Position numbers and translations under genes: made by a program. DNA of 64,000 nucleotides from Saccharothrix ecbatanensis (GTDB lineage Bacteria > Actinomycetota > Actinomycetes > Mycobacteriales > Pseudonocardiaceae): positions 3,968,001-4,032,000 of the forward strand of contig NZ_JACHMO010000001.1 in NCBI RefSeq assembly GCF_014205015.1, given 5' to 3'. The notes under the pieces were generated by a model that saw only the letters and a list, made by a program, of their open reading frames with translations, searched no databases and was not told the origin of the DNA. The number at the start of each line of letters is the position of its first letter. Positions within the stretch are counted from its first letter, which is position 1. This document shows, piece by piece, positions 23,929 to 62,000 of the stretch.

Positions 23929-24019
23929 TTGTCTCCGCTCGCCTCTTGTCGGGCTCTTTGGTCGCCGGCCACGGCTGAACAGCCACATTGCCAATACGCG
24001 GACCAGATGGATTACTTGA

Positions 24020-24049: not shown

Positions 24050-24106
24050 CCCCTATCGCCCCCAGCCCGACCAAAGGGCTGTGACCAGCGGATAGTCCGC
24101 AGGGTT

Positions 24107-24141
24107 AGGGGGTGAGCGCGACTGCACCGCGTGCCTAGAAT
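24107..24141 (+). promoter_or_regulatory. Putative promoter of the 4-ketoreductase gene, with AGGGG box
   Basis: AGGGGGTGAGC (24107-24117) provides a weak -35 (GTGAGC), followed after 18 bp by a good -10, TAGAAT (24136-24141). The box resembles those at the divergent sugar operon and at the luxR promoter. Confidence 0.45.
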
Positions 24142-24196
24142 CGATCTGGGCGCAGCGATGCGCAAATTCAGTGGCAACTGTTCTGGAAGGAGTGCC

Positions 24197-27770: not shown

Positions 27771-27850
27771 CAAATTGGCTTCCCCTTCCCCAGAAAGCAA
27801 AGCCGACCGACAGCCATTTGTACCGGGGCCGATTCCCCGGATGCCATGGC

Positions 27851-27884
27851 GTATCGAAGTTCTTTGGCCGCCCTGTCAACCCCT
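27851..27884 (-). promoter_or_regulatory. Putative luxR promoter with AGGGGTTG box
   Basis: On the minus strand a perfect TTGACA (27879-27874), a 17-bp spacer and CGATAC (27856-27851). The box AGGGGTTGACA (27884-27874) overlaps the -35, like the boxes at the two sugar promoters. This is compatible with self-activation by the LuxR protein. Pattern-based. Confidence 0.55.
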
Positions 27885-27948
27885 GCTTGCCACACCTAGC
27901 ATTCCAACCTGGCCGAGGTGTGTCCGCACGGTAGTCCGGGAGCGTGGA

Positions 27949-38500: not shown

Positions 38501-41500
38501 CAGGTCGGTGGCCCGCACCCGGGCCAGCAGTTCCCGGAACGACGGGTCGCCGGAGGTGTCCGTACGCAGCACGATCGTGTTGACGAAGAATCCGATCAGG
38601 TCGTCGAGCGCCTCGTCGGTCCGTCCTGCGACCGTCGTGCCCAGCGGGATGTCCGTGCCCGCGCCGAGCCTGGTCAGCAACGCCGCGACGGCGGTGCGCA
38701 CCACCATGAAGGCACTCGTGCCCGTCACCTTCGCGAGCTTGGTCAGGCCCGGACCGACCTCCGCCGGAATCGGCACCGCCACCACGTCTCCCCTGGTCCC
38801 GGCCACGGCCGGACGGGGGCGGTCGGTGGGCAGCGCCAGCTCCTCCGGCAGCCCGGCGAGCGCCGAGCGCCAGTGGCCGAGCTGGCGGGAGATGGCACTG
38901 TCCCGATCGTCTTCGCTGCCCAGCACCTGACGCTGCCAAAGTGCGTAGTCGGCGTACTGCACCGGCAACGGTGCGAACTCCGGCACCGCACCACGTACGC
39001 GCGCCGCGTACGCGACGCCGATGTCGCGCGCGAGTGGCCCCATGGACGCGTGGTCGCCCGCGATGTGGTGCAGCACAAGGAGAAGCACGTGGTCCCGAGG
39101 CCCGAGTGCGAAGAGGAACGCCCGCAGCGGGATCTCGGTGGACAGGTCGAAACCACGACCTGCCTCGGCCACGAGCGACTCGGCCAGTCGGTCCGGGTCC
39201 GCCTCCCGGACGACCATGTCGATTCCGGCATCCGTGACGTGCTGCCGCGGGACGCCATCGGTGTGCGGGAACGTCGTGCGCAGGCTCTCGTGCCTGGCCA
39301 CCACGTCCCCGAGCGCCAAATTCATCGCGGTCGCGTCCAGCTCGCCGATCAGCCGGACCGCGAGCGGGATGTTGTACTGGCCGTCCGTGCCGTCCATGTT
39401 GTTGATGAACCACAACCGGCGCTGTGCGTACGACAGCGGCAACACCTCGGGCCGCTCGGCCGGTGCCAGTGGCGGGCGTGCGGCGGCCGCACCGGCCAGC
39501 GCTTCCGCCAGACTGGCGACCGTCGGCGCGTCGAACACGGCTCGCACCGGCAGCTCACTGCCCAACTCGGCACGGATCCGGTTGACCAGCCTGGTCGCGG
39601 TGAGCGAGTGCCCGCCCAGAGCGAAGAAGTCGTCGTCGATGCTCACCGACCCGACCGCGAGCACCTCGGCGAACAGTTCGCAGAGCGCGCGTTCCGCCGG
39701 TGTCCTCGGCGGGCGTCCGTCCCCGGCAGCCCCGAGTTCGGGCTTCGGCAGCGCGCGCCGGTCGACCTTGCCGTTCCGGTCGAGCGGCAGGCTGTCGAGG
39801 GCCACGAACACCGAAGGGACCATGTGCTCGGGCAGCCTGTCACGCAGCCAGTCCCGCAGCGCACCGATGTCCAGATCCGACCGGACCGCCAGGTAGCCGA
39901 CCAGCCTGTGCCCGCCGGAGCCGTCGTCCTGGGCCACCACCGCCGCCCGGCCGACCGCGTCGTGCGCGGCCAGCACCGACTCGATCTCCCCGGGCTCGAC
40001 CCGGAAGCCGCGCACCTTGACCTGGTCGTCGGCCCGCCCGGCGAACTCCAGCTGTCCGTCCGCCGTCCACGACACCAGGTCGCCGGTGCGGTACATCCGA
40101 GCGCCCGGCGGGCCGAAGGGATTCGCCACGAACCGCTCGGCGGTCGTCCCGCTCGCGTTCAGGTAGCCACGGGCCAGTCCGTCTCCGGCGATGTACAACT
40201 CCGCCCGGACGCCCGGCGCCACCGGACGCAGCCAACCGTCCAGGACGTAGACCTGGACGTTCCAGAGCGGACTTCCGATCGGCGGCCGCACCGCCCCCGA
40301 CAGTGGCAAGCTCATCGTCGCGGCCACCGTCGTCTCGGTCGGTCCGTACGTGTTGACCATCAGGCGGTCTGCCGACCACTGCGAGACGACGTCCGGCGGG
40401 CACGGCTCCGCGCCGACCGCGATGGACCGCAGCGAAGGCGAAGGCGGCAACGTGCCGAGCATGCCCGGGGTCAGCTGGACGTGGGTGACCCCGGTGCGCT
40501 CGATGATCTCCGCCAGCTCGGCGCCGACCGGGACCCCGCTGCCCGGCAGCACAAGCGTTCCACCTGCCGACAACGTCATCGCGATGTCCGCGACGGATGG
40601 GTCGAAGCTGGGTGACACCAACTGGAGCACACGGCTTCCCTCGGTGACGGCCAGGCGTTCCGCGTGCGCTCCCGCCATACCCGCGAGGCCGGCGTGCGTC
40701 ACGACAACGCCCTTGGGCCGTCCGGTCGAACCGGACGTGTAGATCACGTACGCCGCTTGCCCCGGCGACAACACCGTGGCCGGATCGTCGGTGGACCGGC
40801 CGGTCACGTCGAGCCGCTCGGTGATCACCGTTGCCACTCGCGCGTCGGTCAGCATGAGCTCGACCCGTTCGGCCGGATGTCCCGGATCCACGGGCAGGTA
40901 CGCGGCGCCTGCCTTCAGCACGCCGAGCACCGCCGCGAGCCACTCCGGCGACCGCGCCATCCGCACCGCGACAACCTCATCCGGCCGGACTCCCTGACCG
41001 GCGAGGAAATGCGCGTACTGATTGGCCCGCGCGCCGAGCTGCCCGTAGGTCCACTCCTCGCCGGAGGTCGCGTCGTGCACGGCGACCGAACCCGCACTAC
41101 GCCGGACTTGGGTCTCGAACAGGTCGAGCAGCGTCGCCGCGCCCACGTCGTGGGCGGTGTCGTTCCACGTGACGAGCACCTTCCGGCGTTCGTCGTCGGT
41201 CAACGGGTCGATACCGGCGACCGGGCACAGCGGGTCGGCGATGAACGCGTCCACCAGCCGCATGAGCTTCGCCGCCAGGGACTCGACGTCGAACAGACCC
41301 GGCCGGTGGTGCAGCGTCAGGACGGTCGATCCGGCGTCGCTCGACGTCGCCAGCGCGAGCGGGTAGTGGGTGCCGTCCTGGATGCGCACATCGGACACGC
41401 CCAGACCGTGCGCGGCCTCGTGCAGGCCGTCGGCGTCCAGCGGCTGGTTCTCGAAAACCGTCGCGGTGTCGAACAGTTCACCCGTGCCCGCCAGCCGCTG

Positions 41501-44500
41501 GATCTCAGCCAAGCCGAGGTACTGGTGGTCGAGCAGTTCGGCCTGCCTGCGCTGCAACCGGTTCAGCACATCGAGGACGGTGTCGCCGGGCTCGGTGCGG
41601 ACGCGGACCGGCAGGGTGTTGATGAACAGCCCCACCATCCGGCCCGCGCCGGGCATCTCGGCGGGCCTGCCGTTGACGGTCTCACCGAAGACGACGTCGG
41701 CCCGGCCGGTCAAGCCGCACAGCAACAGTCCCCACAGCCCTTGCACCACGAGGTTCTTCGTCAGGCCGTGCCGCCGGGCTTGCGCGGTGAACGCGATCGC
41801 CTTGTCCTCGGTGAGCCGCAACCGCGTCGACTCGGATCGCACCACGGGCCCGCCCGCGGCAGGCGCCGCGACAAGTGTCGGTTCCACCGGACCTTCGAGT
41901 GCGTCCCGCCACGCCCGCTCGGCCGCGTGCCGGTCTCGACCGGCGATCCACGCGAGGTAGTCGCGGTACGGCGGGACCGGGGGCAGCGCCGAGTCGTCAC
42001 CACGGCTGCCGTACAGCTCGAACAGCTCACCCAGCACGATCGGGCCCGACCAGCCGTCGAGCACGATGTGGTGGTTGGTGAACAGCAGCCGGTGTTCCCC
42101 GGCGCCCAGCTTGACCAGTGTGAACCGGACCAGCGGCGACTGCCGCGGATCGAACCGCCCGGCCAGGTCGGCGGCGAGCAACCGATCCAGCTCGGTGGCC
42201 CGCCGCGCCGGGTCCAACTCGCTGAGATCGGCCTCGTGCCACGGAACCTCGACCGCGCGCGGGATCACCTGCACCGCCTGGCCGGTCCCGTCCGAGTGGA
42301 ACGCCGCCCGCAGGTTGTCGTGCCTGCGCAGCAACGCCTCGGCCGCGTCCCGCAACACGCCCACGTCGAGCGAGCCGTGCAGGTCGATCACGGTCTGGAC
42401 GTTGTACATGTCGGCGCCGCGGTTGTCGTACAGCGCGTGGAAGAGCAAGCCTTCCTGCAAGGGAGACAGCGGCAGCACGTCGGCCATCCCCGGCCGCTCG
42501 CGCTCCAGGTCGTCGATCTCGTTCTGCGACAACGACACCAACGGCAGGTCGGACGGCGCGAAGCCGCCGCCGTCCGCGCTGACAAGGGCTTCCAGCGCAC
42601 CGAACCAGGCATCGGCCAGTTCCCGGGCCCGCACCTCGGTCAGCAGTTCGCCCGGCCAGCTCCAGTCCGCGACCAAGCGCGGCCCGTCGGGGTAGTTCAC
42701 TGTCATCGCGTTGACGTTGACAGCGTGCGGCAGCGCCATTCCCGCGTCGGCGGGCACGCCTGCCGGTCCCTGTTCGTCCTCGTTCTCGTCCGTGGCCGTG
42801 CCCATCCGACCGAGGTAGTTGAAACCGATCTGCGGACCGGCGTACCGGGCCAGCGCGGGCGAGGTCTGCGGGTTGAGGTACCGCAGCATGCCGTAGCCGA
42901 TGCCGTGGTCCGGAATGGCGCGCAGCTGCTCCTTCACCCGGTTCACCGCGGCCTCGACGCCGTCGGCGCCCGGATCGAGCCGGACCGGGTACGAGCTGGT
43001 GAACCAGCCGACCGTCCTGGACAGGTCGGTCCCCGGGAAGATCTCCTCCCGGCCGTGCCCTTCGAGCCCGATGAGGACAGCCGGTTCCGTGCTCTCCCGC
43101 CAGCCGTTCACCGCGAGAGCCAGCGCGGCCAGCAGGACGTCGTTGATCCCGGCGTGGAATGCAGCCGGCACCTTCCCCAGCAGGGGTTCGGTCACCGCGG
43201 CGGGCAGGACGAGCCGCAGGTGGCTCGCCGAGCCGAAGGTGTCCTTCGCCGGATCGAGCGGCCGCTCGGTGATCATCGGCTCCCGGGTGCCGAGAATCTC
43301 CCGCCAGGTCGCCAGTTCCCGCATCCGGGCCGGTGAACTCGCTTCCTCGGCCAGCTGCCTGGCCCAGGCCCGCAACGATGTGCCCACCGGCGCCAGCCGC
43401 ACCGGACGACCCGCGAGCAGGGCGTTGACGGCCTCTTCCAGGTCGGGCAGCAGGATCCGCCACGACACGCCGTCGACCACCAGGTGGTGCGCGACGATCG
43501 TCAGGTGCCCGGTCCTGCCCGGACCGGCGTCGAACCAGACGCATTGCAGCATCACGCCGTCGTCCGGATTCAGTCGCCGCTGTGCGGCGTCGACGTCGGC
43601 GGCATCGAGCCCGGAGGTGACCCGGTGGACCACATCCGCCGCGCGCACCGCCCCGGTCGGTGCGATCTCCAGCGACCACCCGAAGTCGTCGCCGAGCCGC
43701 GTCAACGTCGTCCGCAGCGCGTCGTGATGGTCAAGCAGTGCCTGCACCGCGGCATGCACGGTCTTCTCGTCCGCATCGGCGGGCACGTCGGCGGTCACCG
43801 TCTGGTTGAAGTGCTCGATCCGCCCGCCGCTCTCCCGCAGCCAGTGCATGATCGGTGTCAGCGGGACGTCGCCGACGCCGTCCGAAGTGTCCGGTACAGG
43901 CGTTTCCACCGCAGCGCTCGCCCGTGCGACCGCGGCGAGAGCCTCGGGCGTCTTGTGCATGAACACGTCCCGGGGGCTGAAGACCAGCCCGGCGGCGCGG
44001 GCCCGTGCGACCAGCTGCATCGAGACGATGCTGTCGCCGCCCAGTTCGAAGAAGTTGTCGTCCACCCCGGCCTTGGGCACGCCCAGCACTTCCGCGAACA
44101 GCCGGCAGAGCAGCTCCTCCTGCTCGTCACGGGGTTCCCGCGAACCGGTCCCGCCGGCGAACTCCGGCGCGGGCAGCGCCTTGGTGTCGAGCTTGCCGTT
44201 GACCGTCATCGGGAACGTGTCCATCGGCACGACCGCGGCCGGAACCATGTGCTCCGGCAACGCTGTGGCGACGTGCGCGCGCAGCACCCGGCTGTCGACG
44301 TCGCGGCCGGCGGCCGCAACGACGTACGCCACGAGCCGGCGACGGCCCGGCTGGTCCTCGCGGGGCACCACCGCGACCCGGTCCACGTCCGGGTGCGCCG
44401 CCAGCACGGACTCGATCTCACCCGGCTCCACGCGGAAACCGCGGATCTTCACCTGGTTGTCGGCCCGACCGACGTAGTCCAGCTGACCGTCGGACCGCCA

Positions 44501-47500
44501 GCGGGCCAGGTCTCCCGTCCGGTACAGCCTGCCGCCCGCCGGGCCGAACGGATCTGCGACGAACCGTTCGGCGGTCAGTCCCGGCCGGTTGAGGTAACCC
44601 CGGGCCAGCGCCGGGCCGCCGACGTACAGCTCACCCACCACACCGACCGCGACCGGCCGCAGGGCCTTGTCCAGCACATGGGCACGTGCGTTCCACAGTG
44701 GACGGCCGATCGGCGGCACGCCCTCGGTCAGCGGGTCGCTGATGGACGCGCACACGGTGGTCTCGGTGGGGCCGTAGGCGTTGACCATCAGGCGGCCCGG
44801 AGCGAACCTCGCCACGAGTTCGGGCGAGCACGCCTCACCGCACGGCATCAGCGCCATCCCGTCGGGCAGCGCGTCGGCGGACAGCACCGACAGCGCGACC
44901 GGCGGGAGCATCGCGTGCGTGACGTTCTGCTCCTTGAGCAGCCGGGACAGCTCCGGGCCGGGCAGGAGCCGGTCCGGCGAGGCCAGCACGAGCGCGCCAC
45001 CGACCAGGATGGTCGCCGACATCTCCGAGAACGCCGCGTCGAACGCGGGCGAGGCGAACTGGAGCATCCGGCTGCCCGGCCCGACCTGGAAGATGGTCGA
45101 CTCGCCGATGCCCAGGCCGGCGACCCCGGTGTGGGAGACCACCACGCCCTTGGGCCTGCCGGTCGAGCCCGAGGTGTAGATGACGTACGCCGCGCTCTCC
45201 AACGGAACCGCCACCGCGCCGGGCAACGGCTTGGCGTCGAACGGCTTGTCCAGCAGGATCACGTCGGCCCTCGTCGCGGGCAGATCGATGTCGCCTTGTG
45301 TGATCAACGCGGCCGGGCGTGCATCGTCGAGGATGTACGCCAGCCGTTCGGCCGGGTAGTTCGGGTCGAGCGGGACGTAGGCGGCGCCGGCCTTGAGCAC
45401 CGCGAGCAGCGCGACATGGAAGTCCACGGACCGCGGCAGGGCGATCGCGACGTAGTCCTCGACCCCGATCCCCCGCCCGGCCAGCACCCCGGCGAGGTGG
45501 TTCGCGCGGTCGTCCAGGTCGGCGTAGGTCACCACGGTGTCGCCGGACACCAGGACCGGCGCGTCCGGCGTGGCCGCTGCCTGGACCTCGAACAACTGCG
45601 GGAACGTCAACGCCGGCACGTCGTGTGCCGAGTCGTTCCACTCCGACAGCTGGGAGTGCTCCGCGTCGGACAGCAGATCCACCCGGCAGGCAGGCAGATC
45701 GGGGTGCGTGGCGAACGTCTCCAGGACGCGGAGGAACCGGGCCGCCATCGTCTCGATCGCGGCGTCGTCCAGCAGATCCGGCCGGTACGACAGGTACATC
45801 GCCAGGTCGTCGCCGCGCTGGGTCGCGGCCAGGCCGAGCGGGTAGTGGGCGGCGTCCTCCACTGCCGCGTCGAGAACTCCCAGCTGCCGGCTGGAGGTCT
45901 CCAGCGTCTCCATGTCGACCGGGTAGTTCTCGAACACGACGATCGTGTCGAACAGCTCGCCCGCCCCGGCCAGCCGGGCCACGTCGGTCAGGCTCAGGTA
46001 CTGGTGCGCCAGCAAGCCGGACTGTTGGCGTTGCAGCCCGGCGAACAGGTCGGCGAGCGGGGCGGCCGGGTCGATGCGCACCCGGACGGGCAGCGTGTTG
46101 ATGAACAGGCCCAGCATCTTCTCCACGCCGGGCAGCTCCGGCGGGCGTCCGGACACGGTCGCGCCGAACACCACGTCGTCGCGGCCGGTCAGGTGGCTGA
46201 GCATGAGCGCCCAGGCGCCCTGCACCAGGGTGTTCACTGTGAGACCGCTACGGCGTGCGGCTGCGGCGACGCCAGTGGACAACTCGCGGGGCAGATCCAG
46301 GTTCCACCGCTTCGGCGGGGCCTGGTCGCGAGCCGGGTCCGCGGGCACGACCAGCGTGGGGTCGCCCAGGCCGGCGAGCACTTCGCGCCACACCTGCTCG
46401 CTCGCGCGAACGTCCTGCTTGGCCATCCAGGCGAGGTAGTCGCGGTACGGCGTGACGGCAGGCAGGGTCGTGTCGTCGCCACGTTCGTTGTACAGCTCGA
46501 ACAACTCGCCGATCAGCAGCGGCATGGACCAGCCGTCGACGAGGATGTGGTGCACCGTGATCACGAACCGGTGCCGGTCCTCGGCGAGGCGGATCACCAT
46601 GCAGCGCACCATGGGCGGTCGAGCCAGGTCGAACCGGGTCGCGCGGTCCTCGGCGAGCAGCCTGCCGAGTTCGGCACTGCGGTCGGCGTCGGCCCACCCG
46701 GTCAGGTCGACCTCGGTCCACGGCATCTCCACCGCACCCGGGATCACCTGCCACGCCTGTCCCTCGTCACCCGTCACGAAGTACGCCCGGAGGTTGTCGT
46801 GCCTGCGCAAGACGGTCTCGACCGCGCCCCGCAGCACCGCCGAGTCGACCGCTCCGCTGAGTTCGAGCGCGGCCTGGATCGTGTAGACGTCCGAGGCCCG
46901 CTCGTCGTAGTGCGCGTGGAAGTGCAAGCCCTGTTGCAGCGGCGCCAACGGCAGGACGTCGGTGATATCCGGCCGGGCGGCCTCCAGCCGGTCGATCTGC
47001 TGCTGGGTGATGCTCACCAGCGGCAGATCGGACGGGGTCAGGCCGCCCTCGCCGGTCCGCTCGCCGAGCGACCGGAGTTCTTCGGCCCACAACGTGTTCA
47101 GCGCGAGCACTTGGGCGTCGTCGAGCAGCTCACCCGACCACGTCCAGGTCGCCACCAGCCGCCGGCCGTCGGGGAACCGCTGGGCCATGACGTTGAGTTC
47201 CAGCGCGTGCCCGAGCGGCATGTCCGCGTCCGCGGCCCCTGCCATGTCGTGGATGCCGCTGTCCGGCTCCTCCTCCGCCTCCCCATAGCGGCCGAGGTAG
47301 TTGAACGCGATCTGCGGGTCGGCGAACCGCGCGAGCGCCCCGGCGGTGTCCGGGTTGAGCCACCGGAGGAGGCCGAAACCCATGCCCTTGTCCGGGATCG
47401 CGCGGAGCTGTTCCTTCACCGTCTTCAGCGAGCCACCGGAATCGATCGCCACCGGGTAGGCACTGGTGAACCAGCCCACGGTCCGGGACACGTCGGCGCC

Positions 47501-49957
47501 CGGAACGATCTCCTCCCGGCCGTGCCCTTCCAGGTTCACGAGCACCGGACCGCTTGTGCCACGCCACTTCGCCACCGCGGCGGCGAACGCGGTCAGCAGC
47601 ACCTCGTCGACACCGGCGTTGAACGCCGTCGGGATCGCGCCGAGCAGCGGACCGGACACCTCCACGGGCAGCGCCACGGTGTGCCTGCGGCCGATTCCGA
47701 CCACATCCTTGGCGGCGTCCACGGGGCGGGCGCCGAGCAGTGGGTCTTCAACACCCAGCGCGGCCTGCCACAGGTCCAGTTCGGCCACGCGTTCCGGCTG
47801 TGCGGCGAGCGCGGCCAGCCGGTCCGCCCAGTTCCGCAGGGAGGTGCCCACCGGCTCCAGCTTCACCTGCCGGTCGGCGAGCAGCGCCTCGAACGCGGAC
47901 GCCAGGTCGGGCAACAGGATGCGCCACGACACGGCATCGACCGCCAGGTGGTGCGCGACCAGGGTCAGACCGTCGTCGAACCAGACCGCTTGCACCATCA
48001 GGCCGTCGGCGGGCGACAACCGGGCTGTCGCGGCCTCGATCGCGTCCGGGTTCTGGGCGCCCGCGACTCGTCGCACGCAGTCCTCGGCGCGCACCGAGCC
48101 CACCGGCAGCACTTCAAGCGACCACTCCGGGCCCAGCCGCAGGCGCAGCGCGTCGTGGTGGTCGATCAACGCCCGCAGCGCGGCGTGCATCATCGGCTCG
48201 TCGACACCGGCGGGAACCGGCACGGACACCGTCTGGTTGAAGCGGTTTACCGGCCCGCCCTGTGCCCGAAGCCAGTGCATGATCGGGGTCAACGCGACCG
48301 GGCCGACGCCGTCGTCCGTGGGGACGACCGTGTCGTCCAGTGACCGCGCGACAGTCGCGAGTTCGGCGACGGTCCTGTGCTCGAACACGTCGCGCAACGT
48401 GAACTTCAGCCCGGCCCTGCGCGCCCGGCTGGACAACTGGATCGACGTGATGCTGTCGCCGCCGAGCTGGAAGAAGCCGTCGTCGATGCCCACGCTGGAC
48501 ACGCCGAGGACCTCGGCGAACAGGCGGCACAACAACTCTTCGCGTTCGTTTCGCGGAGCCCGGTACTCGGCTTCACCTCGATCCACCGCCGCCTGGGCTC
48601 CGGCCAGGGCGCGCAACGCGGCCGACCGCCAGTCGCCGTCCAGGGAGTCGACCGTCCGGTGTGGATCGTCGGCGAACGCGGTCAGCACGTGGACGACCCG
48701 GCCGAGGATCTCCCGGGCGTCGGCATCGGCGATCAGGTCCGGCCGGTGGTCCAGGCGCAGCAGCAGGTCCCGGCCCTTGAGGGTGCCCTCGAGGTTCAGC
48801 ACGTAGTGGGTCGCGTCCGCGCCCGTCGCCGCCGTGGCGCCGATCCCCTGCGCGGCGGCCTCCAGGTTGTCCGCGTCGACCGGGTAGTTCTCGAACACGG
48901 CCATCGCGTCGAACAGGTCGCCGTGGCCGGCGAGCCGCTGCACGGTGTGCAGCCCGATGTACTGGTACCCCGCCAGTTCGGCCTGCTGGTCTTGCAGCCG
49001 ACGGGCCACCTCGCGCAACGACGAGCCGGAGTCCAGGCGCACCCGGACCGGCAGCGTGTTGATGAACAGACCGACCATGCGTTCCGCGCCGGCCAGCTCC
49101 GGCGGACGGCCGGAGACCGTGCCGCCGAACACGACATCATCCCGGCCGGTCAGGCTCCCCAGCACGAAACCCCACGCGGCCTGCACCACGCTGTTGAGCG
49201 TCAGGCCGAGCGACCGAGCCCGCGCCACCAGCGAGACCGCCAGCTCGGTGGGCACCTGCTCCAGGAGCATGCCCGGCAGCACCGGCGTGCGGGCCGTGCC
49301 GGGCGGGGCGACGAGCGTCGGTCCGGTCAGGCCCCGCAATGCGTCGGCCCACGCCTGTTCCGCCTCGCCCTGGTCCTGTTTGGCCAGCCAGTCCAGGTAC
49401 CGGCGATACGACACGACCGGCTCGAGCGCCGACTCGTCCCCGCCGTTGTTGTACAGCTCGAGCAGCTCACCCAGCACCAACGGCATGGACCAGCCGTCGA
49501 GCAGGATGTGGTGCGCGGTCAGCACAAAGCGGTATTCCCGGGCAGTCAGCTTGATCAGGGTGAACCGCAGCGGTGGCTGGGACAGGTCGAACCGGTTGGT
49601 CCGGTCGTCGGCGATCACCCGGGCCAGTTCGTCCGCCCGGCCTGTCTCCGGGACCCCGGTCAGGTCGACCTCGTGCCACTGCGGCTCGACCTCGCGCATG
49701 ATGACCTGCACCGGCTCGCCGGACTTGCGATCCCGAAAGCCCGCCCGCAGGTTGTCGTGCCTGCGCAGCACGGTCCGGACCGCGCGCCGCAAGGCCACCG
49801 CGTCCACCTCGCGGCGCAGGTCCAGGGTCATCTGGATGACGTAGACGTCCGTGCCCCGCTCCTCGTACCGGGCGTGGAACAGCATTCCCTGCTGGAGCGG
49901 GGACAGAGGCCACACGTCCACCAAGCCGGGCTTGATCATCTCGCCTTTCCCTTTCAT
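35546..49957 (-). CDS. NRPS, terminal subunit: C-T-E | C-A-T-E | C-A-T | C-A-T-TE
   Basis: About 4803-aa, four-module NRPS. Module a (1-~1000): C (HHILLDG), T (~498), E, with no A domain; the E motif is HHLAVDA instead of HHxxxDG. Module b (~1003-2495): C-A-T-E, A code D-A-S-M-M-C-A-V-C, unassigned. Module c (~2496-3500): C-A-T, code D-P-A-Q-A-G-T-V-A. Module d (~3503-4500): LCL-type C (HHIAGDH, unusual), A code D-I-V-Q-L-G-A-V-Y, NAYAPTE in place of NxYGPTE, then T (~4484). A C-terminal type I thioesterase (GWSMGG) from ~4540 releases or cyclises the chain. Carrier motifs agree with layout: GGDS before E, GGHS before the LCL C. The start at 49957 overlaps the upstream NRPS stop (TGATG); an internal ATG at 49939 has a better ribosome site (GGGAAAGG). 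Longer upstream starts are rejected. Confidence 0.95.
46960..49957 (-). other. A-less NRPS module (C-T-E), first module of the terminal subunit
   Basis: The C domain ends around [15 protein letters not shown] and is joined by a linker of about 40 residues (rich in Ala and Arg) straight to the carrier domain [13 protein letters not shown]...LGGDS. None of the ten A-domain motifs occurs. The carrier must be loaded by an A domain from elsewhere. Confidence 0.93.
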
Positions 49958-52900
49958 CAAGCCAAGTCGCTCTCGAACTCGTCGATCTCGTCCTGGGACA
50001 GCGTCAGCAGCGACAGGTCCGATGGGGTGACGCCGCCCGGACCCGCTTCGGTCACGATCGTCTCGAGGCGGCGGAACCACAGCTCCGCCACCGAGCGGAC
50101 GTCCTCTTCGTCGAACAAGGTGCCGGGCCACGACCACACGGTCATCAGCTGCGGGCTGCCCGCGCGGTCCTGGGCGAGCGCGTTCACGCTGAGCGCGTAC
50201 GTCATCGGCTTGCCCGGATCACTGCCGCCGCCCACGGTTTCCTTGGCCTCGGGTGGTGTGGCCCAGTCCTCGGTCCGCGCGACCTCCTCGGTGGCGTCGA
50301 ACCGGCCGAGGTAGTTGAAGCCGACCTGCGGCTGGGCGAAGCTCTGGAGCACCGGAGCGGTCTCCGGGTTGAGGTACCGCAGCAGCCCGTACCCGATGCC
50401 CTTGTCCGGGATGGCCCTCAACTGCTCTTTCACGCTCTTCAGCGCGACGCCGACGTCGCCGGTGCCCGGGTCGACCGCCACCGGGTAGGCACTGCTGAAC
50501 CAGCCGACCGTCCGGGCGACGTCGACACCCTCGACGACGTCCTGCCTGCCGTGTCCTTCGAGGCCGACGAGCAACGCCGTGCCGTCGCCGCGGCCACGGG
50601 CACGCCGCCAGTCGCCGATCGCCATGGCCAGCGCGGTCAGCAGCACGTCGTCCACGCCGGTGTTGAACGCCGCGGGCACCCGGCCGAGCAGCGGCTCGGT
50701 CACCTCCGCGGGCAACACCAGGCGGATCTGCCTGGCCGAGCCGACGACGTCCCGGGTGGGGTCGACCCGTCGGTCCGCCAGCACCGGATCGGGCGTGCCG
50801 AGCACGCTCCGCCACATGTCGAACTCCGCCACCCGGTCCTGTTTCGCGGCCAGCAGCGAAAGCTGCCGCGACCACCGGCGGAACGACGTCCCCACCGGTT
50901 CGAGCGCCACCTCGTCGCCCGCCGACACGGCCGCCCAGGCGCTGCGCAGGTCCTCCCCCAGCACCCGCAACGACATGCCGTCGACCACCAGGTGGTGCAG
51001 GACCAGCATCAACCGGCCGCGGCGGCGCGTTCCGCCGTCGAACCACACCGCGCGCACCATGCGGCCGTTCTCCGGGGACAGTTCGGCCTGCGCGATCCGC
51101 TGCTGCTCGACGACGACCGTCATCAGGTCGTCAGCGGACACATCGGAGATGTCGACCTTGGTGATCAGGCGGGCGGCGTCGATCGAGCCCTTCGGCGTGA
51201 TCTCCATGCGCCACACCGACAGGCCGGTGCCGTTGTCCGGGTCGTGCCGAAGCCTGGCCCTCAGCATGTCGTGGTGGTCCACGACCGCCTGTAGCGTGCG
51301 CGCCAGCGTGACCTCGTCGATGCCTGCCGGGACCTGCAACAGGTTGGCCAGGTTGTCCCGGGTGGCGGCGCCGTCCCGTTCGATCAGGTCGAGCATGATC
51401 GGGGTGAGCGGGAACTCGCCGACGGCGTCCTCCGGCCGCTCCTGGATGTTCGTGTCCTGCTCGTCGGCCGCCGTCCGGGCCAGCTCCCGCACGGTCCGGC
51501 TGACGAACACGTCCCGCAACGTGAAGACCAGGCCGACCTTGCGGGCCCGGCTGGAGAGCTGGATCGACACGATGCTGTCCCCGCCGAGCTCGAAGAAGTC
51601 GTCGTCCAGCCCGACCTCGTCCACGCCGAGCACCTCGGCGAACAGCCCGGTGAGGATCTCTTCACGGGCCTTGAGGTCCCCCGCCGGACCGCTCGGCTCC
51701 GGCTGCTGACGGGCGGCGCCGACCCGCTGTTCGAGCTCCGGGCGCAGGGTGGTCCACAGCGCCGCCAGCTCGTCGTCGGCCACCTGCCCCACCGGCCGCT
51801 CGGGCTCCGCGACGATGGCGGCCAGGATCCGCCGCAGCCCGGCGGCCACCCGCTCGATCTCGGACCCGGTGAACATGCCCGGCTGGTAGCCGATCCGGTA
51901 TCCCATCCCGGCCCCGGCCTGCCAGGCGTCCAAGGTCAGCGTGTAGTGCGTGGCGTCGCTCGTGTGCAGGTCGACCGCGCGGACACCCTCGTCCTCGGCC
52001 TTCGGCTCGTCGAACGTGTCAGAGGCCACCGGGAAGTTCTGGAACGCCAGCAACGTGTCGAACAGCTCGCCGAGCCCCGTCAACCGCTGGAGGTCGACCA
52101 GCCGCAGGTGCTGGTGGGCCATCAACGCCGCCTGCCGCTCACCGAGACCACGGATGGTCTCCGCGACCGAGCCGGCCGCGTCGAACGCGACGCGCACCGG
52201 GATGGTGTTGATGAACAGGCCCACCATCCGCTCGATGTCTTCCACCTCGGGTGGCCTGCCCGACACGCTCGCGCCGAAGACCACGTCCTCGCGCCCGGTC
52301 AGCCTGCTGAGCAGCAGCGCCCACGCCGTCTGCATGACCGTGTTCACCGTGACACCGCAGTCGGCCGCGAGTTCGGTGATCCCCGCCGCCAGGTCGGCCG
52401 GCAGGTCGGTGGTCAGTTTTTCCGGCAACCGCGGTTCGCGGTCCGGGTTGACCGGAGCGAGCAGGGTCGGCTCGGTCAGCCCCGCCAGCTCGCCACGCCA
52501 CACCTCCTCGGAGGCTTCCCGGTCCTGCTCGGTGAGCCAGGTCAGGTAACGCCGGTACGGCGGCGGCACGGGCAGCGCCGAGTCGTCACCACCGGACTCG
52601 TACAGCCGCATCAGGTCGTCCACCAACGCTGGCGTGGACCAACCGTCGAGCAGCACGTGGTGCAGGGTCAGCACAAGCCGGTACTCCGCCTCGCCCAGCT
52701 GGAGCACCAAGCACCGCAGCAGCGGCGGCTTCGCCAGGTCGAACCGCTCGGCCCGTGCCTCGGCGAGGACCCGCTCCAGCTCGCCGGGCGGCGCGTCGCG
52801 CAGATCCAGCTCCGACCACGGCACCCGCACGGCGGCCGGGAGGAACTGGACCGGATGGGTCAGGCCGTCGTGGGCGAACCCGGTCCGAAGGTTCTCGTAC

Positions 52901-53085
52901 CGCTGCGTCAGCGCCTGCACCGCGGCGCGCAGCGCGGTCAGGTCCACGTCACCGGCCAGGTCCAAGCCGAGCTGCAACGTGTAGACGTCGACGCCCTTGT
53001 CGTTGTAGAGGGCGTGGAAGACCAGGCCTTCCTGAAGCGGGGCCACCGGCAGCACATCCACCAGGCCGGGGTGGGCGGCGGCGAG
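49957..53085 (-). other. A-less NRPS module (C-T-E), last module of the internal subunit
   Basis: After a complete C domain (HHVLLDG) the sequence [17 protein letters not shown] passes through a ~45-residue linker ([18 protein letters not shown]...) directly into a carrier domain ([11 protein letters not shown]...[11 protein letters not shown]) and an epimerase (HHLVVDG). There is no A domain. Confidence 0.93.
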
Positions 53086-56000
53086 CGCGTCGACCTCCTG
53101 CTGGGACAGCCGGACGAGCGGGAAGTCCGAAGGGGACCATCCGCCGACGCCGTCCTGCTCGGCGTGGGCGATCAGCTCCTCGGTCACCTGCTCCCAGATC
53201 CGGGTCAGGCCCAGCATCTCGTCCTCGGTGAACAGCGCCTCCGGCCACGTCCAGTGCCCCTGCAACCGCAACCCGTCCACGTGGTCCAAGTTGGACAGCT
53301 TGAGGCCGATCGGGTGCGCGATCGGGGTGTCCGGGTGGTCGGCCTGGTGCACCAGCTCGGTGCCGATCACCGCCCAGTCACCGATCTCGGGCTCCTCGCT
53401 GGCCTCCAGCCTGCCGAGGTAGTTGAACAGGACCTGCGGACCGGCGAAGCGGGCCAGCACCGGCACGGTCTGCGGGTTGAGGTGCCGCAGCAGCCCGAAG
53501 CCGATGCCCTTGTCCGGGATGGCGGCGAGCTGTTCCTTGACCAGCTTGACCGCCGAGCCGAGGTCGCCGTCGGCGCCGGTGTCCAGCCGCACCGGGTAGG
53601 CCGCGGTGAACCAGCCGACCGTGTGGGACAGGTCCGCGCCGCCGATGGCCTGCCTGCCGTGCCCCTCGGCTTCGATCAGCACACTGGAACCGCCACCGAG
53701 TCCGCGGCTGTCCCGCCATCGCTGGACCGCGATCGCGAGCGTGGCCAGCAGTACCTCGTTCACGCCGGTGTTGAACAGCGCCGGGATCCGGGCCAGCAGC
53801 GGTTCGGTGGAGGCCACGGGCAGGGTCTGCTCGATCTGCCGCACCGTCCGGGTGAGGTCCCTGGCCGGGTTGAGCGGCTGCGCCGACAGCGGCGGGTCGC
53901 CCGCGCCGAGGATGTCGGTCCACACCGTCAGCTCGTCGATCCGCTCCGGGCGCGACGACTCGGCGACCAGGCCCTCGGCCCACTGCTTGAACGACGTGAC
54001 GACCGGCTGCAAGCTGGGCTCACGCCCGGCGGTCACCGCCTCGTACGCCTCGCGCAGGTCCGGGACCAGGATCCGGGTGGACACGCCGTCCACGGCCAGG
54101 TGGTGCATCACCAGCAGCAGCCGGTGTGCGGCGGCTCCGCCGTCGAAGTAGACAGCCTGGAGGACCGCGCCGTTCTCCGGCGACAGCCGCTCCTGCGCGG
54201 CCTTCTCGTGCTCGTGCAGCACCGTGATCAGCGCTTCTCCGGTGAGCCCGCGCACGTCCACAGTGGTCAGCAGGTCGGCTGCGCGGACGTCGGCCCTGGG
54301 CAGCGACTCAAGGCTCCACACGTGGTTGCCGATCCGCCGAGTCAGCTTGAGCCGCAACGTGTCGTGGTGGTCGAGCAGGATCTGCAGTGCCGCGGTCAGC
54401 CGCTGCTCGTCGCAGCCCGCGGGCAGCCGCAGCAACGTCTCCTGGCTGAAGTGGTCGATCGGACCGCCCCGCTCGCGCATCCAGTGCATGACCGGGGTGA
54501 GCGGGATCTCGCCGATGCCCGCGTCCGACACGGCAGGGGCGGCGGACCCCGCACCCGCCCAGGTCGCCGCCGCGGCGAGCGCCGCGACGGTCCGGTGCCG
54601 AAGCACGTCCTCGGCGGTGAACGCCAAGCCCGCCTTCCTCGCCCGGCTGACCAGCTGGATGGAGATGATGCTGTCGCCACCGAGCTCGAAGAAGCCGTCG
54701 TCGATGTTCACCGACGCGACACCCAGCAGCTCGCCGACCAACTGCGCGAGCAGCTTCTCCTTCTCGTCCCGGGGCGCCCGCCCACCGCGGGCGGCCTCGG
54801 CCACCGGGGCGGGCAGGGCCGCGCGGTCGACCTTCCCGTTGGCGTTCAACGGAAGTTCCCCGAGCACGGTGAACGTCGCCGGGACCAGGTAGTCCGGCAG
54901 GCGTTTCACCAGGTACTCGCGCAGCCCCGACGGCTTCGGCGGTCGCACGGCGCCGCTGACCACGTAGGCGGCGAGCTGCCGGTGCCCGTTCTGGTCCTCG
55001 TGGGTGCCCACCGCGACCTGGTCGACCTTGGGGTGCCCGGCCAGCACGGCCTCGATCTCCCCGAGTTCGATCCGGAAGCCGCGGACCTTGACCTGCTCGT
55101 CCGCCCGGCCGACGAACTCCAGTGCGCCCGTGGCGTTCCACCGCACCACGTCGCCGGTGCGGTACAGCCGCGATCCGGGCGGCCCGAACGGATTCGCCAC
55201 GAATCGTTCCGCGGTCAGCGCCGCCCGGTCGAGGTAGCCACGCGCGAGGCCCACACCGGCGACGTACAACTCGCCCTCGACGCCCGCGGCGACGGGACGC
55301 AAAGCCGCGTCGAGCACGTACACCCGGGTGTTCCAGGCGGGACGGCCGATCGGCGGGTGGACCTCGCCGGACAGCGGCTCGCTCATGGTCGCGCAGACGG
55401 TCGTCTCGCTCGGGCCGTACACGTTGATCATCCGCCGTCCGGCCGACCACTGGGCGACCTTCTCCGGCAGGCACGGCTCGCCACCGGCGACCAGCGTGCG
55501 CAGCGTCGGCAGCGGCTTGGCGGGCAACGTGGCCACGACGCCGGCGGTGAGCTGGACGTGGGTCACCTCGTTGCGTTCGATGATGGCGGCCAGTTCCTCT
55601 CCGACCGGCTGATGGTGGCCGCTGGGCAGCACCAGGGTCGCGCCGGTGAGCAGGGTCATCGCCAGGTCGGCGATGGACGGGTCGAAGCTCGGCGAGACCG
55701 CCTGAAGCACGCGGCTTTCCTCGTTCACGACCAGGTTCTCCGCGTGCGCACCGGCCATGCTCGCGATGCCGGCGTGCGTCACCACGACACCCTTGGGCCG
55801 GCCGGTCGAGCCGGACGTGTAGATGACGTATGCCGGGTGTGCGGGCGACAGCGGCTGGGCCCGTCGCGCGTCCAGGGGGTCGGTGACCGGCGCGGCCGCG
55901 GCTTCGGCGCGAACCTCGTCGGAGTCGATGACGAACGGCTCCGGGACACCCGCTTGCCGCACCTGGTCCGCCGCCGCGGCGGTGGTCAGCACCAAGGCGG

Positions 56001-59000
56001 GACGGCTGTCCGCGATCAGCAAGGCGATCCGCTCGGCCGGATGACCGGGATCCACCGGCAGGTAGGTCGCGCCCGCCTTGAGCACGCCGAGCGTCACGGC
56101 CAGCCAGTCGACCGAGCGGGCCACCGCGACGGCGACCAGTCGCTCGGGCCGCGCACCCCGCGCGATCAGCACGTGTGCCCATTGGTTCGCACGCTCGTTG
56201 AGCTGCTCGTAGGTCAAGCTCGCGGCGGGCAGACCGTCCGGAACGACCGCGGTACGCCCGGGGACCCGCCGCACCTGTTCCTCGAACAGCGCCGGGAAGG
56301 TGGAGGGCGCCACGGGCCGGGCCGTGTCGTTCCATTCCTGTGGTATCGCGCCGCTCCGGCCGTCGATCCGGCTGATCGGCGCGCTCGGGTCGGCGGTCAC
56401 GGAATCCAGCACGGAAACGAGCCTCCTCGTGATCATCTCTACGGTGCCGCGGTCGAACAGGTCTGTGCGGTAGCTGACGCGGCCGGTCAGCCCGGCCGGA
56501 TCGCCGTCCGGGCCCCGCTCGTCGGACAGCTCGACGCCGAGGTCGACCTTGGCGACGGGCAGGTCGACCGACGCCGGCCGCACCGTCAGTCCGGGCAGCC
56601 TCAGCTCCGGCGCCGTGTTGTTCTGGAACGCCAGGAAGACCTGGAACAGCGGGCTGAAGCCCCGGAAGGCCCGGAACATGTCGACCAGCCGGTCGAACGG
56701 CACGTCCTGGTTGGCGTACGCGGCCAGATCTGTTTCCCGGACGCGGGCGAGCAACTCGGTGAACGCCGGATCGCCGGACGTGTCGGTCCGCAGCACCAGC
56801 GTGTTGACGAAGAACCCGATCACCTCGTCGAGTGCCTGGTCGCCCCGGCCGGCGACCGCGGTGCCGATCGGGATGTCGGTGCCCGCGCCCAGCCCGGTCA
56901 GCGTGGTGGCCAGCGCCGCCTGCACGACCATGAACAGGCTGACCTGGTTGTCCCGCGCGAGCTGGACGAGCCTGGCGTGCAGGGAGGCGTCGATCTCGAT
57001 GTCGACGGAGTCACCGCGGTCGCCGACTCGCTGCGGCCTCGGTCGGCCGACCGGCAGCGCCGGCTCCTCGGGCAGGCCCGCCAGCGCCGCCTCCCAGAAG
57101 TCGAGCTGCCGGGAGGCCAGGCTGTCCGGGTCGTCCTCGGCGCCCAGCAGCTCACGCAGCCAGAGCGTGTAGTCGGCGTACTGCGCCGTGAGCGGCGTGA
57201 ACTCCGGTGCCCGGCCGGAAACCCTTGCGGTGTAAGCGACGGACAGGTCACGGGCCAGCGGCGCGTTCGACCACCCGTCGGTGGCGATGTGGTGCACGTT
57301 GAGCAGCAGCACGTGCTCGGTCGCGGTTGTGCCCGCAACCTCGAAGAGCGTGGCCCGCAGGGGAAGTTCGGCCGCGAGGTCGAAGCCGCGCGCGCCGGCC
57401 GCGGTGAGCGCCTCGTCCAGTCCGGCCACGTCCACCCGGACCACCTCGACGTCCACTCGGGACGGCCTGTGCACGTGCTGGCGCGGGCGGCCATCGGTGT
57501 CCGGGAAGGTGGTGCGCAGGCTCTCGTGCCGTGCGACGACATCGGCCAGGGCAGCGCGCAGCGCGGTGACGTCGAGTGTTCCCGACATCGCGATCCCGAT
57601 CGGGACGTTGTAGGTGCCGTTCGGCCCGGTCAGCGTGTTCAGGTACCACAGGCGCCGCTGCGCGAAGGACAACGGGATCTCCGCGGGCCGGTCCATCGCC
57701 CGCAGAGCGGGACGCCGTGCCCAGGCTCCACCGGCGGCGATCCGGCGCGCGAACGCCGCCGGGGTCGGGGCGTCGAACACCGCACGGACGTCGACCGACT
57801 GGGCGAACACCGTCCGGACCCGGCTGATCAGCCGGATGGCATTCAGCGAATGCCCGCCCAGGGTGAAGAAGTCGTCGTCGGGACCCACTTCCGACAGGCC
57901 GAGCACCTCGGCGAACAGCACGCACAGGATCTCCTCCTGCGGGGTGAGCGGCCGCGCCACCGAGTCGCCCACCGTCCGGTCCGGTGCGGGCAGCGCGGCC
58001 CGGTCCAGCTTTCCGTTGGTGGTCAGCGGCAAGCTCTCCAGAACGACGAACGCGTCCGGCACCATGTACTCGGGCAACGCGCTCGCGGCGTGCGCGCGGA
58101 TCACGGGCACGTCCACGCGTTGTCCATCGGCGGGCACGAGGTAGGCGACGAGCTGATCGTCACGAACGATCACGGCTTGCGTCGCCACCTGGTGGTGCCC
58201 GGCCAGCACCGCGCCGATCTCCCCGAGCTCGATCCGGTACCCGCGCAGCTTCACCTGGTCGTCGGCGCGGCCCGCGAACACCAGGTCGCCGTCGGCGGTC
58301 CAGCGGGCCAGGTCGCCGGTCCGGTACATCCGCTCGCCCGGGGGCCCGAACGGGTCGGCGACGAACCGCTCGGCCGTCAGCGCGTGCCTGCCGAAATAGC
58401 CACGGGCCAGGCACGGGCCCGCGATGTACAGCTCACCGGTCACGTCGAGAGCCACCGGACACAGGGCGGCGTCGAGCACGTAGGCCCGGACATTCCCTTG
58501 TGGACGGCCGATCGGCACCGGACCGGACGGCACCGGGGCGCCTGGTTCGATCCGGTACTCGGTGCAGTTGACCGTCGCCTCGGTCGGACCGTAGACGTTC
58601 CACACCGTGGCGTCCGGGTGCTTGTCCCGCCAAGGCGTGAGCGCCTCGCCGAGCAACGCCTCACCACCCAGCAGCAGTTCCGTGACCGGCGAGAACTCGT
58701 TCGGCAGCGCGTCCAGCAACGGCAGGTGGCTGGGCGTGGCCTTCATGAAGGCGCACGGCGTGCCGTTCAGTCGCGCGGAGACCCCTACGTTCTCCGCGAG
58801 TTCGGCGAGCAGCACCGTGCCGCCGACCACGAGCGGGGTGAACAGCGCCGTGACGGTGAGGTCGAACGACACCGGGGAGTGCACGAGCGCGGTCCCGGTG
58901 GCGCCGGGATACGCCCGGCTTGTCCAGGTGAGGTAGTCGACCACCGAACGGTGCGTGACCACCACGCCCTTGGGTCGCCCGGTCGACCCGGACGTGTAGA

Positions 59001-62000
59001 TGACGTAGGCCGGGTGGTCCCGCCTCAGCGGCCTGGTCCGGTCCTCATCGGCCGGGTCGGTGTCCGGCAAGCCCTTGGCCTGCTGGACCCGCAGCCGCGG
59101 AATGCCGGAGTCCGGCACCGTCGTCGTGCTCACGAGCAGCGCCGGGGCCGAGTCGGCGAGCATGAACGCGATCCGGTCGGCCGGGTAGGCCGGGTCGACC
59201 GGCACGTACGCCGCGCCTGCCTTGAGCACCGCGAGCAGCGTGACCACCAGGTCGACGGAGCGGTCCATCACGACCGCGACGAACTGCTCCGGACCCACAC
59301 CGCGGGCGATCATGGCGTGCGCCAGCCGGTTCGCCCGTGCGTTGAGTTCCGCGTAGGTCAGCTCGGTGTCGCCGGAGACCAGCGCGACCGCGGCCGGGGT
59401 GCGTGCGGCCTGTGCCTGGAACAGGTCGGCGACCGAAGCATCCTGTTCCGGCACAACAGGCCCCTGCCGGCCGGACGCGGGCTTCTGCACGGCGAGGCCC
59501 AGATCGCGGACGGTGGTGTCCGGGGTCTCCGTGAACGCGTCCAGGAGCGTGATCATCTGCTCGCCGATCCAGTTCACGGTGGCGTCGTCGACGAGGTCGG
59601 GCTGGTGGTACCAGTTCAGCGCCATCCGTTGCCCGTCGTGCATCACCACCACACCGAGCGGGTAGTGGTTGTCACCCCGGGTGTCGACATCTGACAGCGT
59701 GAGGGCGCCGGAGAGCTGTGCGGGCTCGGCGGTCGGGAAGTTCTCGAAGACCACGGCGGTGTCGAACAACGGGGTGTGCCCGGCGGCCCGCTGGATGTCC
59801 GACAGGCCGAGGTGGTGGTGTGCGATCAAGTCGGCACGCCCGCCTTGCGCCCTGCGGAAGATCTCCAGCAGGGTGTCGTCCAGGTCGAACCGGATGCGGA
59901 CCGGGACGGTGTTGGTGAACAGACCGACCATGGTCTCGACGCCCGGCAACTCCGGCGGCCGGCCGGAAACGGTCTCACCGAACACCACGTCCCTGCTGCC
60001 GGTGAAGTCACCGAGCAGCAGACCCCAAGCGCCTTGCACGACCGAGTTGACGGTCAGCCCGTGCTTGCGCGCCTGGGCATTGAGGTGCGTCGTCAGCTGG
60101 TCGGGCACCTCCAGCACGACGCGGCCCGGTGGCAACGCCTTGCGGTCCGCGGTGCCCGGCGCCACCAAGGCCGGTCCGGGCAGGCCGTCGAGCGCCTGAC
60201 GCCACGCCGAGACCGACGCGTCCCGGTCCTGGCGGGCCAGCCAGGTGAGGTAGTCGCGATAGGGTGTGACCTCGGCCAAAGCGGAGTCGTCGCCATGGGA
60301 GCGGTACAGCTCGAACAGCTCCGCCGCGAGAACCTGCAGCGACCAGCCGTCCAGCAGCAGGTGGTGCGCGCCGACCATGAGCCGGTGCGCGCGGTCACCG
60401 AGGCGCACCAGCGTGAACCGCAGCAACGGCGGGTTCGTCAGGGTGAACCGCGTCGTGCGTTCCGCCGCCAGGAGCCGGTCGAGCTCCTGCCGCCGATCGC
60501 GTGCGGTCCAGCCGCTCAGGTCGATCTCCCGCCACGGCAACTCGGCCTCGGCCGGAATCACCTGGACCGGCCGGCCGTCCTCGGTGTACCGGAACGCGGC
60601 GCGCAGGTTGTCGTGCCGGCGCAACAACGCTTCGGCCGCCGCTCGCAGAGCGCGCACGTCCAGGTCACCGTGCAGCTCCATCGCCGCCCTGGCGATGTAG
60701 ACGTCCTCTGTGGACTGCTCGTACTCGGCGTGGAACAGCAGGCCTTCCTGCAGCGGTGACAGCGGCAACAGGTCGACCAGCCGCGGCCCGCCGGTCGTCA
60801 GCCGGTCGATCTCGTTCTGGGACAGGGAGACCAAGGGCAGGTCGGACGGCGTGAGCGCGGTGCCGCCATCGGCCTCGGCCACCAGGGTTGTCAAGGCGTC
60901 GAACCAGGCCTGGGCCACCTGCCGCACGTCCTGCTCGGCCATCAGGCCCGCCGGCCAGGACCAGGTCGCGACCAGGCCCGTGCCGTCGGTGAAGGAGTTG
61001 ACGACGAGCGAGTGCGGCAGCGGTGTGTCCGGATGCGCACCGCCGCCGATGCCCTCCTCGGTCGCGTTGTCCAGGCGACCGAGGTAGTTGAACGCGATCT
61101 GCGGCTCGGCGAACTTGGCCAGCGCCAGGGCGGTGCGGGCGTTGAGGTAGCGCAGCATCCCGTAGCCGATCCCGTTGTCCGGGGTCGCCCGCAACTGCTC
61201 CTTGACCGCCTTCACCGCGTCGATCAGCGTGCCCTGACCGGGGTCGAGCCGCACCGGGTAGCGGCTGGTGAACCAGCCCACCGTGGTCGAGAGGTCCATG
61301 CCCGGCTCGATCTGTTCGCGGCCGTGCGCTTCCAGGGCCACCAGAACCGCCGGTGAGCTGTCCGGGCCACGACGGTGCCAGCCGCCGACGGCCACGGCCA
61401 GCGCCGCCAGGAGGACGTCGTTGACCCCGGCACGAAGCGCCGCGGGCACCTGGCCGAGCAGCGGTTCGGTGACGGCCGCGGGCAGCCTGAGGGTCAGCTC
61501 CGCGAGCGAGCCCACCTTGTCCTGGCCCGGATCCAGCGGACGATCGGTCAGCAGCGGGTCGTCGGTGCCGAGGATCTCCTTCCACACCGGCAGTTCCCGC
61601 ATCCGCTTCGGCTCACCGGCCGAGACGGTCAGTTGCTGGGACCAGCGCCGGAACGAGGTGCCCACCGGCTCGAGCTCGACCTGGCCCCCGGTGGCCGCCG
61701 CCGCGAGCGCGGCGGCGAACTGCGGGAGCAGGATCCGCCACGAGACACCGTCGACCGCGAGGTGGTGGATCACCAGCAGCAACCGCCCAGGCCGGTCGCC
61801 CGCGTCGAACCAGACCGCGCGGACCATCTTCCCGGCGTACGGGTCGAGGCCTGCCCTGGCCACTTCGAAATGCTCCGCGGCCACGGCTTCGACCTGCTCG
61901 TCGGAGTCTCCCGAAACGTCCACACGGGACAGACAGCTCGCCGCGGTGACAGCACCGCGGTGCGCCACCTCCAGTGTCCACTCCTCGATCTCGGGCAGCA

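Follow-up and report, generated by a model that had tools for sequence, protein, structure and literature searches.

The locus described here, from Saccharothrix ecbatanensis, encodes two consecutive nonribosomal peptide synthetase (NRPS) modules, 6 and 7, which both have the layout C-T-E, with no adenylation (A) domain between the C domain and the carrier (T) domain. The layout of these modules and their motifs, the presence of a stand-alone A-T gene with a characteristic set of neighbors, the conservation of the arrangement, and its co-occurrence in other clusters are seen directly in the sequences. Together, these observations make it likely that modules 6 and 7 are functional and are charged in trans with L-2,3-diaminopropionate (Dap) by a single A-T protein that probably serves module 1 as well. 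The window, i.e., the whole stretch of 64,000 nucleotides that was analysed, corresponds to genome positions 3968001-4032000 within a 9.69-Mb single-contig genome; coordinates refer to the window unless the genome is specified. The three NRPS genes, all located on the minus strand, and the two A-less modules are as follows:

12043..19440, minus strand: NRPS with module 1 (starter-like C, degenerate A, T) and module 2 (C-A-T-E), from HMM domain calls
49957..64000, minus strand, frame continuing to 65394 beyond the window: NRPS with modules 3-6 (C-A-T-E, C-A-T, C-A-T-E, C-T-E)
35546..49957, minus strand: NRPS with modules 7-10 and TE (C-T-E, C-A-T-E, C-A-T, C-A-T-TE)
50200..53073, minus strand: module 6, C-T-E without A (C 53073-51862, linker 51861-51685, T 51684-51475, E 51432-50200)
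47177..49933, minus strand: module 7, C-T-E without A (C 49933-48725, linker 48724-48563, T 48562-48353, E 48316-47177)

The frame of the NRPS with modules 3-6 (65394-49957 in window coordinates, minus strand, 5145 aa) starts outside the window, and its junction with the gene for modules 7-10 has the sequence TGATG, in which the upstream stop and the downstream ATG (49957) overlap by one base. Judging by the C-domain type and the terminal TE, the likely order of the NRPSs is 12043-19440, 49957-65394 and 35546-49957. A Pfam search identifies four carrier domains vs three A domains in each of the two large proteins (for the modules 3-6 protein, in the part inside the window). HMMs built for this analysis yield the domain strings C-A-T-E-C-A-T-C-A-T-E-C-T-E for the modules 3-6 protein and C-T-E-C-A-T-E-C-A-T-C-A-T for the modules 7-10 protein, to which the TE is added from Pfam. 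The preliminary description of this DNA had placed a pair of A-less C-T-E modules at 46960..53085, straddling a gene junction. The HMM spans (approximately 53073-50200 and 49933-47177) fit this assignment, and module 6 indeed ends one NRPS, with module 7 opening the next. The absence of an A domain is confirmed for both modules: by HMM borders, the C-to-T linker consists of 59 aa in module 6 and 54 aa in module 7. The HHxxxDG motif is intact in C6, C7 and E6, the respective motif of E7 is HHLAVDA, and the carrier motif LGGDS, including the serine, is kept in both T6 and T7. Recent duplication between the two modules is unsupported, given that C6 and C7 are 45% identical and E6 and E7 are 51% identical, no more than other modules. 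If a shared loader had left its mark on the carriers, T6 and T7 might be unusually similar, but a comparison shows that they are not (59% identity for T6-T7 and 62% for T7-T3). Among the matches listed from a scan of 298 related genomes, two A-less modules in a row are present only here and in one other Saccharothrix genome (G008), and no report of two consecutive A-less modules was found in the open-licence PMC literature searched.

The candidate loader is encoded to the right of the window, in a run of genes on one strand:

genome 4049276-4051867 (17 kb right of the window edge), same strand as the run: A-T protein, 863 aa, with a truncated C-like N-terminus, A and T
genome 4048240-4049295 (longest frame), same strand as A-T: TauD dioxygenase, next after A-T
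genome 4047117-4048181, same strand as A-T: SbnB (TIGR03944/TIGR03945 search)
genome 4046100-4047110, same strand as A-T: SbnA (TIGR03944/TIGR03945 search)
genome 4045888-4046043, same strand as A-T: MbtH-like gene, last of the run

SbnA and SbnB score above the curated NCBIfam cut-offs for Dap synthesis (TIGR03945, 380.2 vs 349.95 bits, and TIGR03944, 424.8 vs 326.9 bits, respectively). Modules that are charged in trans need a separate A domain in or near the cluster, and the preliminary description had suggested looking for a free-standing A or A-T gene to the right of the window, where the present one is located. In the genome segment 3.76-4.11 Mb, this protein contains the sole A domain found outside the three NRPSs; it is the only A-PCP protein in the region, so that there is no pair of trans A-PCPs of the WS9326A type. 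The closest relative in the searches comes from Saccharothrix sp. NRRL B-16314, with an A-T protein that is 89% identical. The A-T protein carries its own carrier domain, and no transferase was recognised. Known aminoacyl transferases employ a Cys nucleophile, and this residue was not seen in a by-eye check of three alpha/beta hydrolases (7665-8483 and 9541-10359 in the window and genome 4056727-4057650; first 260 residues). The Pls terminal domain (TIGR02353) is detected neither in the A-T protein nor beside it, the only match above the cut-off in this genome being at genome 2667729-2669732, 1.4 Mb away. In G008, the TauD frame next to the A-T gene is split over two reading frames (G008:C6 near 187575-188536). 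A further TauD gene, for which a link to Dap is only suggested, lies within the window:

29341..30306, minus strand: second TauD dioxygenase; shares 53-60% identity with the TauD proteins that accompany A-T at most other loci

The code of the A-T protein was extracted from an alignment anchored on the core motifs, with code positions following GrsA numbering. The code DIWQSTADDK is present in 67 of the 73 A-T relatives, the six others differing at one position, and the pattern DIWQST[AV]DDK is found in 11 of the 12 A-T genes that are linked to A-less modules (see below). A search of the open-licence PMC literature found DIWQSTADDK in no paper. In the poly-Dap family of the Pls type, the code is another one, with Glu retained at position 3 (PMC10522769). 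Given that the code is unmatched in papers and unlike that of the Pls-type family, the Dap assignment rests on the neighboring SbnA and SbnB genes.

From these features, we infer a route in which SbnA and SbnB would make L-Dap, and the A-T protein, likely partnered by the MbtH-like protein, would activate Dap and put it on T6 and T7, either directly or via its own carrier. The E domain of each module would convert the residue to the D form, yielding two adjacent D-Dap residues, or hydroxylated Dap residues instead, if TauD acts on the bound residue. Module 1 would probably be loaded by the same A-T protein, and the peptide is predicted to contain about ten residues and to bear an acyl group of the polyene or cinnamoyl type.

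The association between A-T genes and A-less modules extends to other genomes. The end of C7 together with the linker and T7 was used as the query against the 298 related genomes, with seven candidates scored per genome; a locus was classified as A-less when the match started at query position 20 or less and ended at position 290 or more, and the rows for this genome and G008 were left out. Among the matches listed, there are 30 such C-T bridging rows in 27 genomes, and 12 of these 30 A-less modules have an A-T relative (at least 50% identity) within 40 kb, vs a chance expectation of less than one by a rough hand estimate; no relative is near the other 18. All 12 linked modules, when read in translation, lack the A domain; SbnA and TauD genes are adjacent in all 12 loci and SbnB in 11, and there is no match to Pls in the stretches fetched around them. 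These loci comprise only about two architectures, one with an NRPS of 7.3-7.6 thousand aa and the other with a smaller protein, C-T-C-A-T, and hence do not represent 12 independent events. The first of the two options in the preliminary description, one external A domain serving both carriers, gains support from the A-T protein being the only outside A domain and from its relatives repeatedly being found beside A-less carriers, with loading itself predicted from this association. NRPSs of another kind, C-A-T-C-A-T-E-C-T-E, with a single A-less C-T-E at the subunit end, are encoded in three loci (L107, L108 and L110, in G194:C49, G050:C1 and G088:C1, respectively), none of which has an A-T relative within 40 kb.

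The association was also examined starting from the A-T genes. Among 36 A-T genes with at least 50% identity, 11 have a Pls match above the cut-off within 5 kb, 14 are linked to A-less modules (this genome and G008 included), and 11 belong to neither class. Nine of the latter, i.e., all except G094 and G114, formed a test set that was not chosen for A-less modules, with about 80 kb examined for each. Six of the nine loci contain a module without a working A domain within about 40 kb: three have clean linkers (41 aa in G236:1078360, 79 aa in G160 and 52 aa in G045), and three have an A remnant (116 aa in G088:C2, 130 aa in G085 and 161 aa in G236:731434). No A-less module was found in the other three (G190:C1, G206:C14 and G050; about 80 kb each). 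A hits shorter than 120 aa were removed from the domain strings; in G075 and G208, this filter creates an additional C-T gap (about 240 aa), which was not counted. At the Pls-side control locus (G076), there is no NRPS in the stretch. A convincing SbnA-SbnB pair is present in only two of the six positive loci (G088:C2 and G236:1078360), so that the other four may use a different amino acid and Dap is not a constant companion of this loader family. In three of these four (G160:C13, G045 and G085:C18), the A-T relatives beside the A-less modules have 52-55% identity, and the arrangement is possibly the same as here but for another amino acid.

The preliminary description was accurate for the A-less pair but did not list a third affected module, the first one of the 12043..19440 NRPS:

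16897..18123, minus strand: degenerate A domain of module 1, about 400 aa, with A3, A5 and the A8-A10 region lost, likewise in G008

Thus, the loader may serve three carriers. A related cluster, G088:C2, encodes homologs of all ten acyl genes that were sought (45-77% identity), the A-T set, and transporter and P450 genes. Its module 1 has a related starter-like C domain (49% identity) followed by a remnant of about 116 aa before T and is the only A-less module in the stretch read. Given that the A domain of module 1 is dead in this genome and in G008 and is a remnant in G088:C2, loading from outside is seemingly needed, and the A-T protein is the only candidate seen. The remnants in G088:C2, G085 and G236:731434 keep stretches resembling the end of the A core, which seems to be the part that is kept last during A-domain decay. 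Specifically, the remnants in loci L131 (G088:C2), L162 (G085:C18) and L139 (G236:C1) contain GELY or GELH, then TG, then W and DG or EG, like module 1 here.

The same module bears on an alternative in which T6 and T7 would be charged across the module boundary by an adjoining A domain, that of module 5 or 8, with the A-T protein confined to module 1 or to the production of some separate building block derived from Dap. In capreomycin, an A domain inside the assembly line has been shown to charge the carrier of a different module (PMC12400406); module 1 is dead here and needs a loader, and in G088:C2 it is the sole A-less module in the stretch read. However, 12 other clusters with a single A-less module have an A-T gene of the same family nearby, and neither module 5 nor module 8 lacks any part: each has a carrier of its own and a code other than that of the A-T protein, so that this alternative appears unlikely.

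Slightly less probable still is skipping of one or both of the A-less modules, such that the carrier hands the peptide on and no residue is added. A-less modules with no A-T partner are common (18 of the 30 among the matches listed), which is compatible with skipping; however, modules 6 and 7 retain the motifs of all three of their domains, and between this genome and G008, dN/dS of these domains is similar to that of the other modules or lower. The dN/dS values for the C and E domains of modules 6 and 7 are 0.23-0.33, within the range of the other modules, and T6 and T7 have the lowest dN among the ten T domains of the three NRPSs (0.007 and 0.026, respectively, vs 0.027-0.061). This ranking is only suggestive because it reflects one and four amino acid changes, respectively, in 70 positions, and T9 has four changes as well. 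The C domains of modules 3, 4, 6, 7, 8 and 9, each of which follows an E domain, cluster together, with 41-52% identity; those of modules 2, 5 and 10 form a separate group (51-56% identity), and the C domain of module 1 stands alone. By this grouping, modules 7 and 8 have C domains of the type that accepts D-residues. This grouping argues against skipping and fits the delivery of D-residues by modules 6 and 7, in agreement with the pair of consecutive D-residues proposed in the preliminary description.

Finally, although repetitive NRPS genes are hard to assemble, a collapse of two A domains out of the sequence is extremely improbable: the modules 6-7 layout is repeated in G008, where the two large NRPSs align over 4863 aa at 89.6% identity and over 5147 aa at 91.4% identity, with no A domain at either site in the full-length alignment, so that the A-less layout was kept in two species. 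Moreover, the linker of module 6 is unlike that of module 7, and each has diverged between this genome and G008 to an ordinary extent (86.4% and 88.9% identity).

The preferred reading, namely, charging of modules 6 and 7 by one A-T protein, can be placed in a wider context by the other settings of the A-T family. A contig scan for A-T relatives yielded at least 80 loci. Among the matches listed, a homologous protein of about 876 aa is encoded upstream of the A-T gene in 76 of 80 loci, and TauD, SbnB and SbnA are neighbors in 75, 76 and 75 loci, respectively, with all three present in 73; SbnA is upstream of A-T in nine of the loci listed. In the three members scanned, the 876-aa protein combines a carrier domain with hexapeptide repeats and lacks an A domain, and the one of these three that was tested shows a full match to the Pls terminal domain. 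Thus, in its commonest setting, beside a Pls-type protein, the A-T protein faces a carrier located on a separate A-less protein. The widespread set (most loci, L009-L087), which consists of the carrier-plus-Pls-terminal protein, A-T with or without TE, TauD, SbnB and SbnA, looks like a split synthetase for a Dap polymer. In a tree of the A domains, 16 NRPS-side rows are separated from 69 Pls-side rows by one branch with SH-aLRT support of 98%; the tree was built with a quick method, is unrooted and has some long branches. The 16 rows are this genome and G008, the 12 linked loci, and two loci without Pls (L035 and L050); L035 is identical to the G223 row, and L047, a 3.4-kb contig, was omitted. 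Loss of TE does not mark the NRPS-side A-T proteins: among 73 relatives, 23 have no detected TE, and six of the 11 linked ones read retain it. A broader and tentative reading, with slightly less than an even chance, is that one Dap-loading A-T protein, of a family shared with the Pls-type sets, charges modules 1, 6 and 7, and that A-T/TauD/SbnB/SbnA is a portable unit that has joined different A-less carriers in a number of assembly lines, replacing A domains that then decay.

Other genes of the cluster provide some clues to the product. Just beyond the A-T gene run, there are genes for KS, KR, DH (FabA-like), a 91-aa carrier protein, and a DsbA-like protein that may be the isomerase of a cinnamoyl set. 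By analogy with the clusters described in PMC6510318, the acyl genes suggest a polyene or cinnamoyl acyl group. Genes for NDP-hexose 2,3-dehydratase, a sugar aminotransferase, an epimerase and a glycosyltransferase are located at 21325-29286, so the product may contain a deoxy(amino)sugar. To the right of the window, at genome 4034304-4036682 (window-equivalent 66304-68682), an anthranilate/ADC-synthase-like gene (GATase, chorismate binding) is adjacent to a chorismate mutase-like gene, a pair that presumably provides a supply of the 4-aminophenylalanine type. Two P450 genes of the cluster flank a gene for a 1447-aa protein with matches to PA14, GLEYA and RHS repeats (genome 4038065-4042408; L004:14065-18408).

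If the predicted loading is correct, one portable gene set would explain the entry of Dap into several assembly lines, A-less modules would be predictable from the A-T gene and vice versa, and this locus would be a natural example of a single A domain supplying several carriers. Loss of the A domain would be captured at several stages: modules 6 and 7 have none left, module 1 has a degenerate one, and three other clusters retain remnants. A prediction of the product from the succession of A domains would overlook these residues. There are precedents for the charging of A-less modules in trans, also with Dap, and a stand-alone A domain has been proposed to act iteratively; in the open-licence PMC literature, no report was found of a stand-alone A-T for two adjacent C-T-E modules or of a link that connects such A-T genes with both A-less NRPS modules and gene sets of the Pls type.

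Among known systems, ramoplanin and enduracidin each involve a single A-less module charged by a free A-T protein with another amino acid; the likeness to the present locus, a free A-T charging an A-less module, is by description, not by sequence. The remaining comparisons refer to portions of the cited papers. The poly-L-Dap synthetase of the Pls/PosA type is a single protein with A, T and a membrane part (PMC4668381). The A-T relatives resemble it in adjoining a carrier-plus-Pls-terminal protein together with SbnA and SbnB, whereas the proven synthetase is a single-protein enzyme of a family with another code; a split version was not found in these portions of PMC4668381 and PMC10522769. The cinnamoyl NRP cluster of the kitacinnamycin paper comprises KS, KR, DH, ACP and isomerase genes beside the NRPS genes (PMC6510318), and coprisamides contain diaminopropanoic acid (PMC4778507). 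With these and with epoxinnamide (PMC9321520), the present cluster has in common KS, KR, DH, carrier-protein and DsbA-like genes beside the NRPS genes and a glycosyltransferase in the cluster. The WS9326A (cal) cluster is likewise a cinnamoyl-type peptide cluster with stand-alone A-PCP genes outside the main NRPS, MbtH, and an A-less module, for which the trans A-PCPs Cal22 and Cal23 are both required (PMC7539972). There, two A-PCPs (Thr and Asn) are combined with one C-PCP module, whereas here, one A-T is combined with two C-T-E modules, so that the ratio is reversed. In the pachycephalamide pathway, the stand-alone A protein PchP7 is proposed to act twice in trans on PchP8 (C-PCP-C), yielding Val-Val (PMC11446937). 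The stand-alone A domain and the proposed repeated trans action giving two identical residues are shared, but in that case, the authors propose one carrier with two C domains, compared to two C-T-E modules in two proteins and another amino acid here. For capreomycin, CmnA-A1 loads L-Dap in trans onto the A-less CmnI (PMC12400406); the A-less module, L-Dap, one A domain for more than one carrier, the MbtH partner, and a Saccharothrix producer are all in common with the present system. The difference is that in capreomycin, the A domain resides inside a module of the assembly line and serves one A-less module, whereas here, a stand-alone A-T protein would supply two adjacent C-T-E modules and perhaps three carriers altogether.
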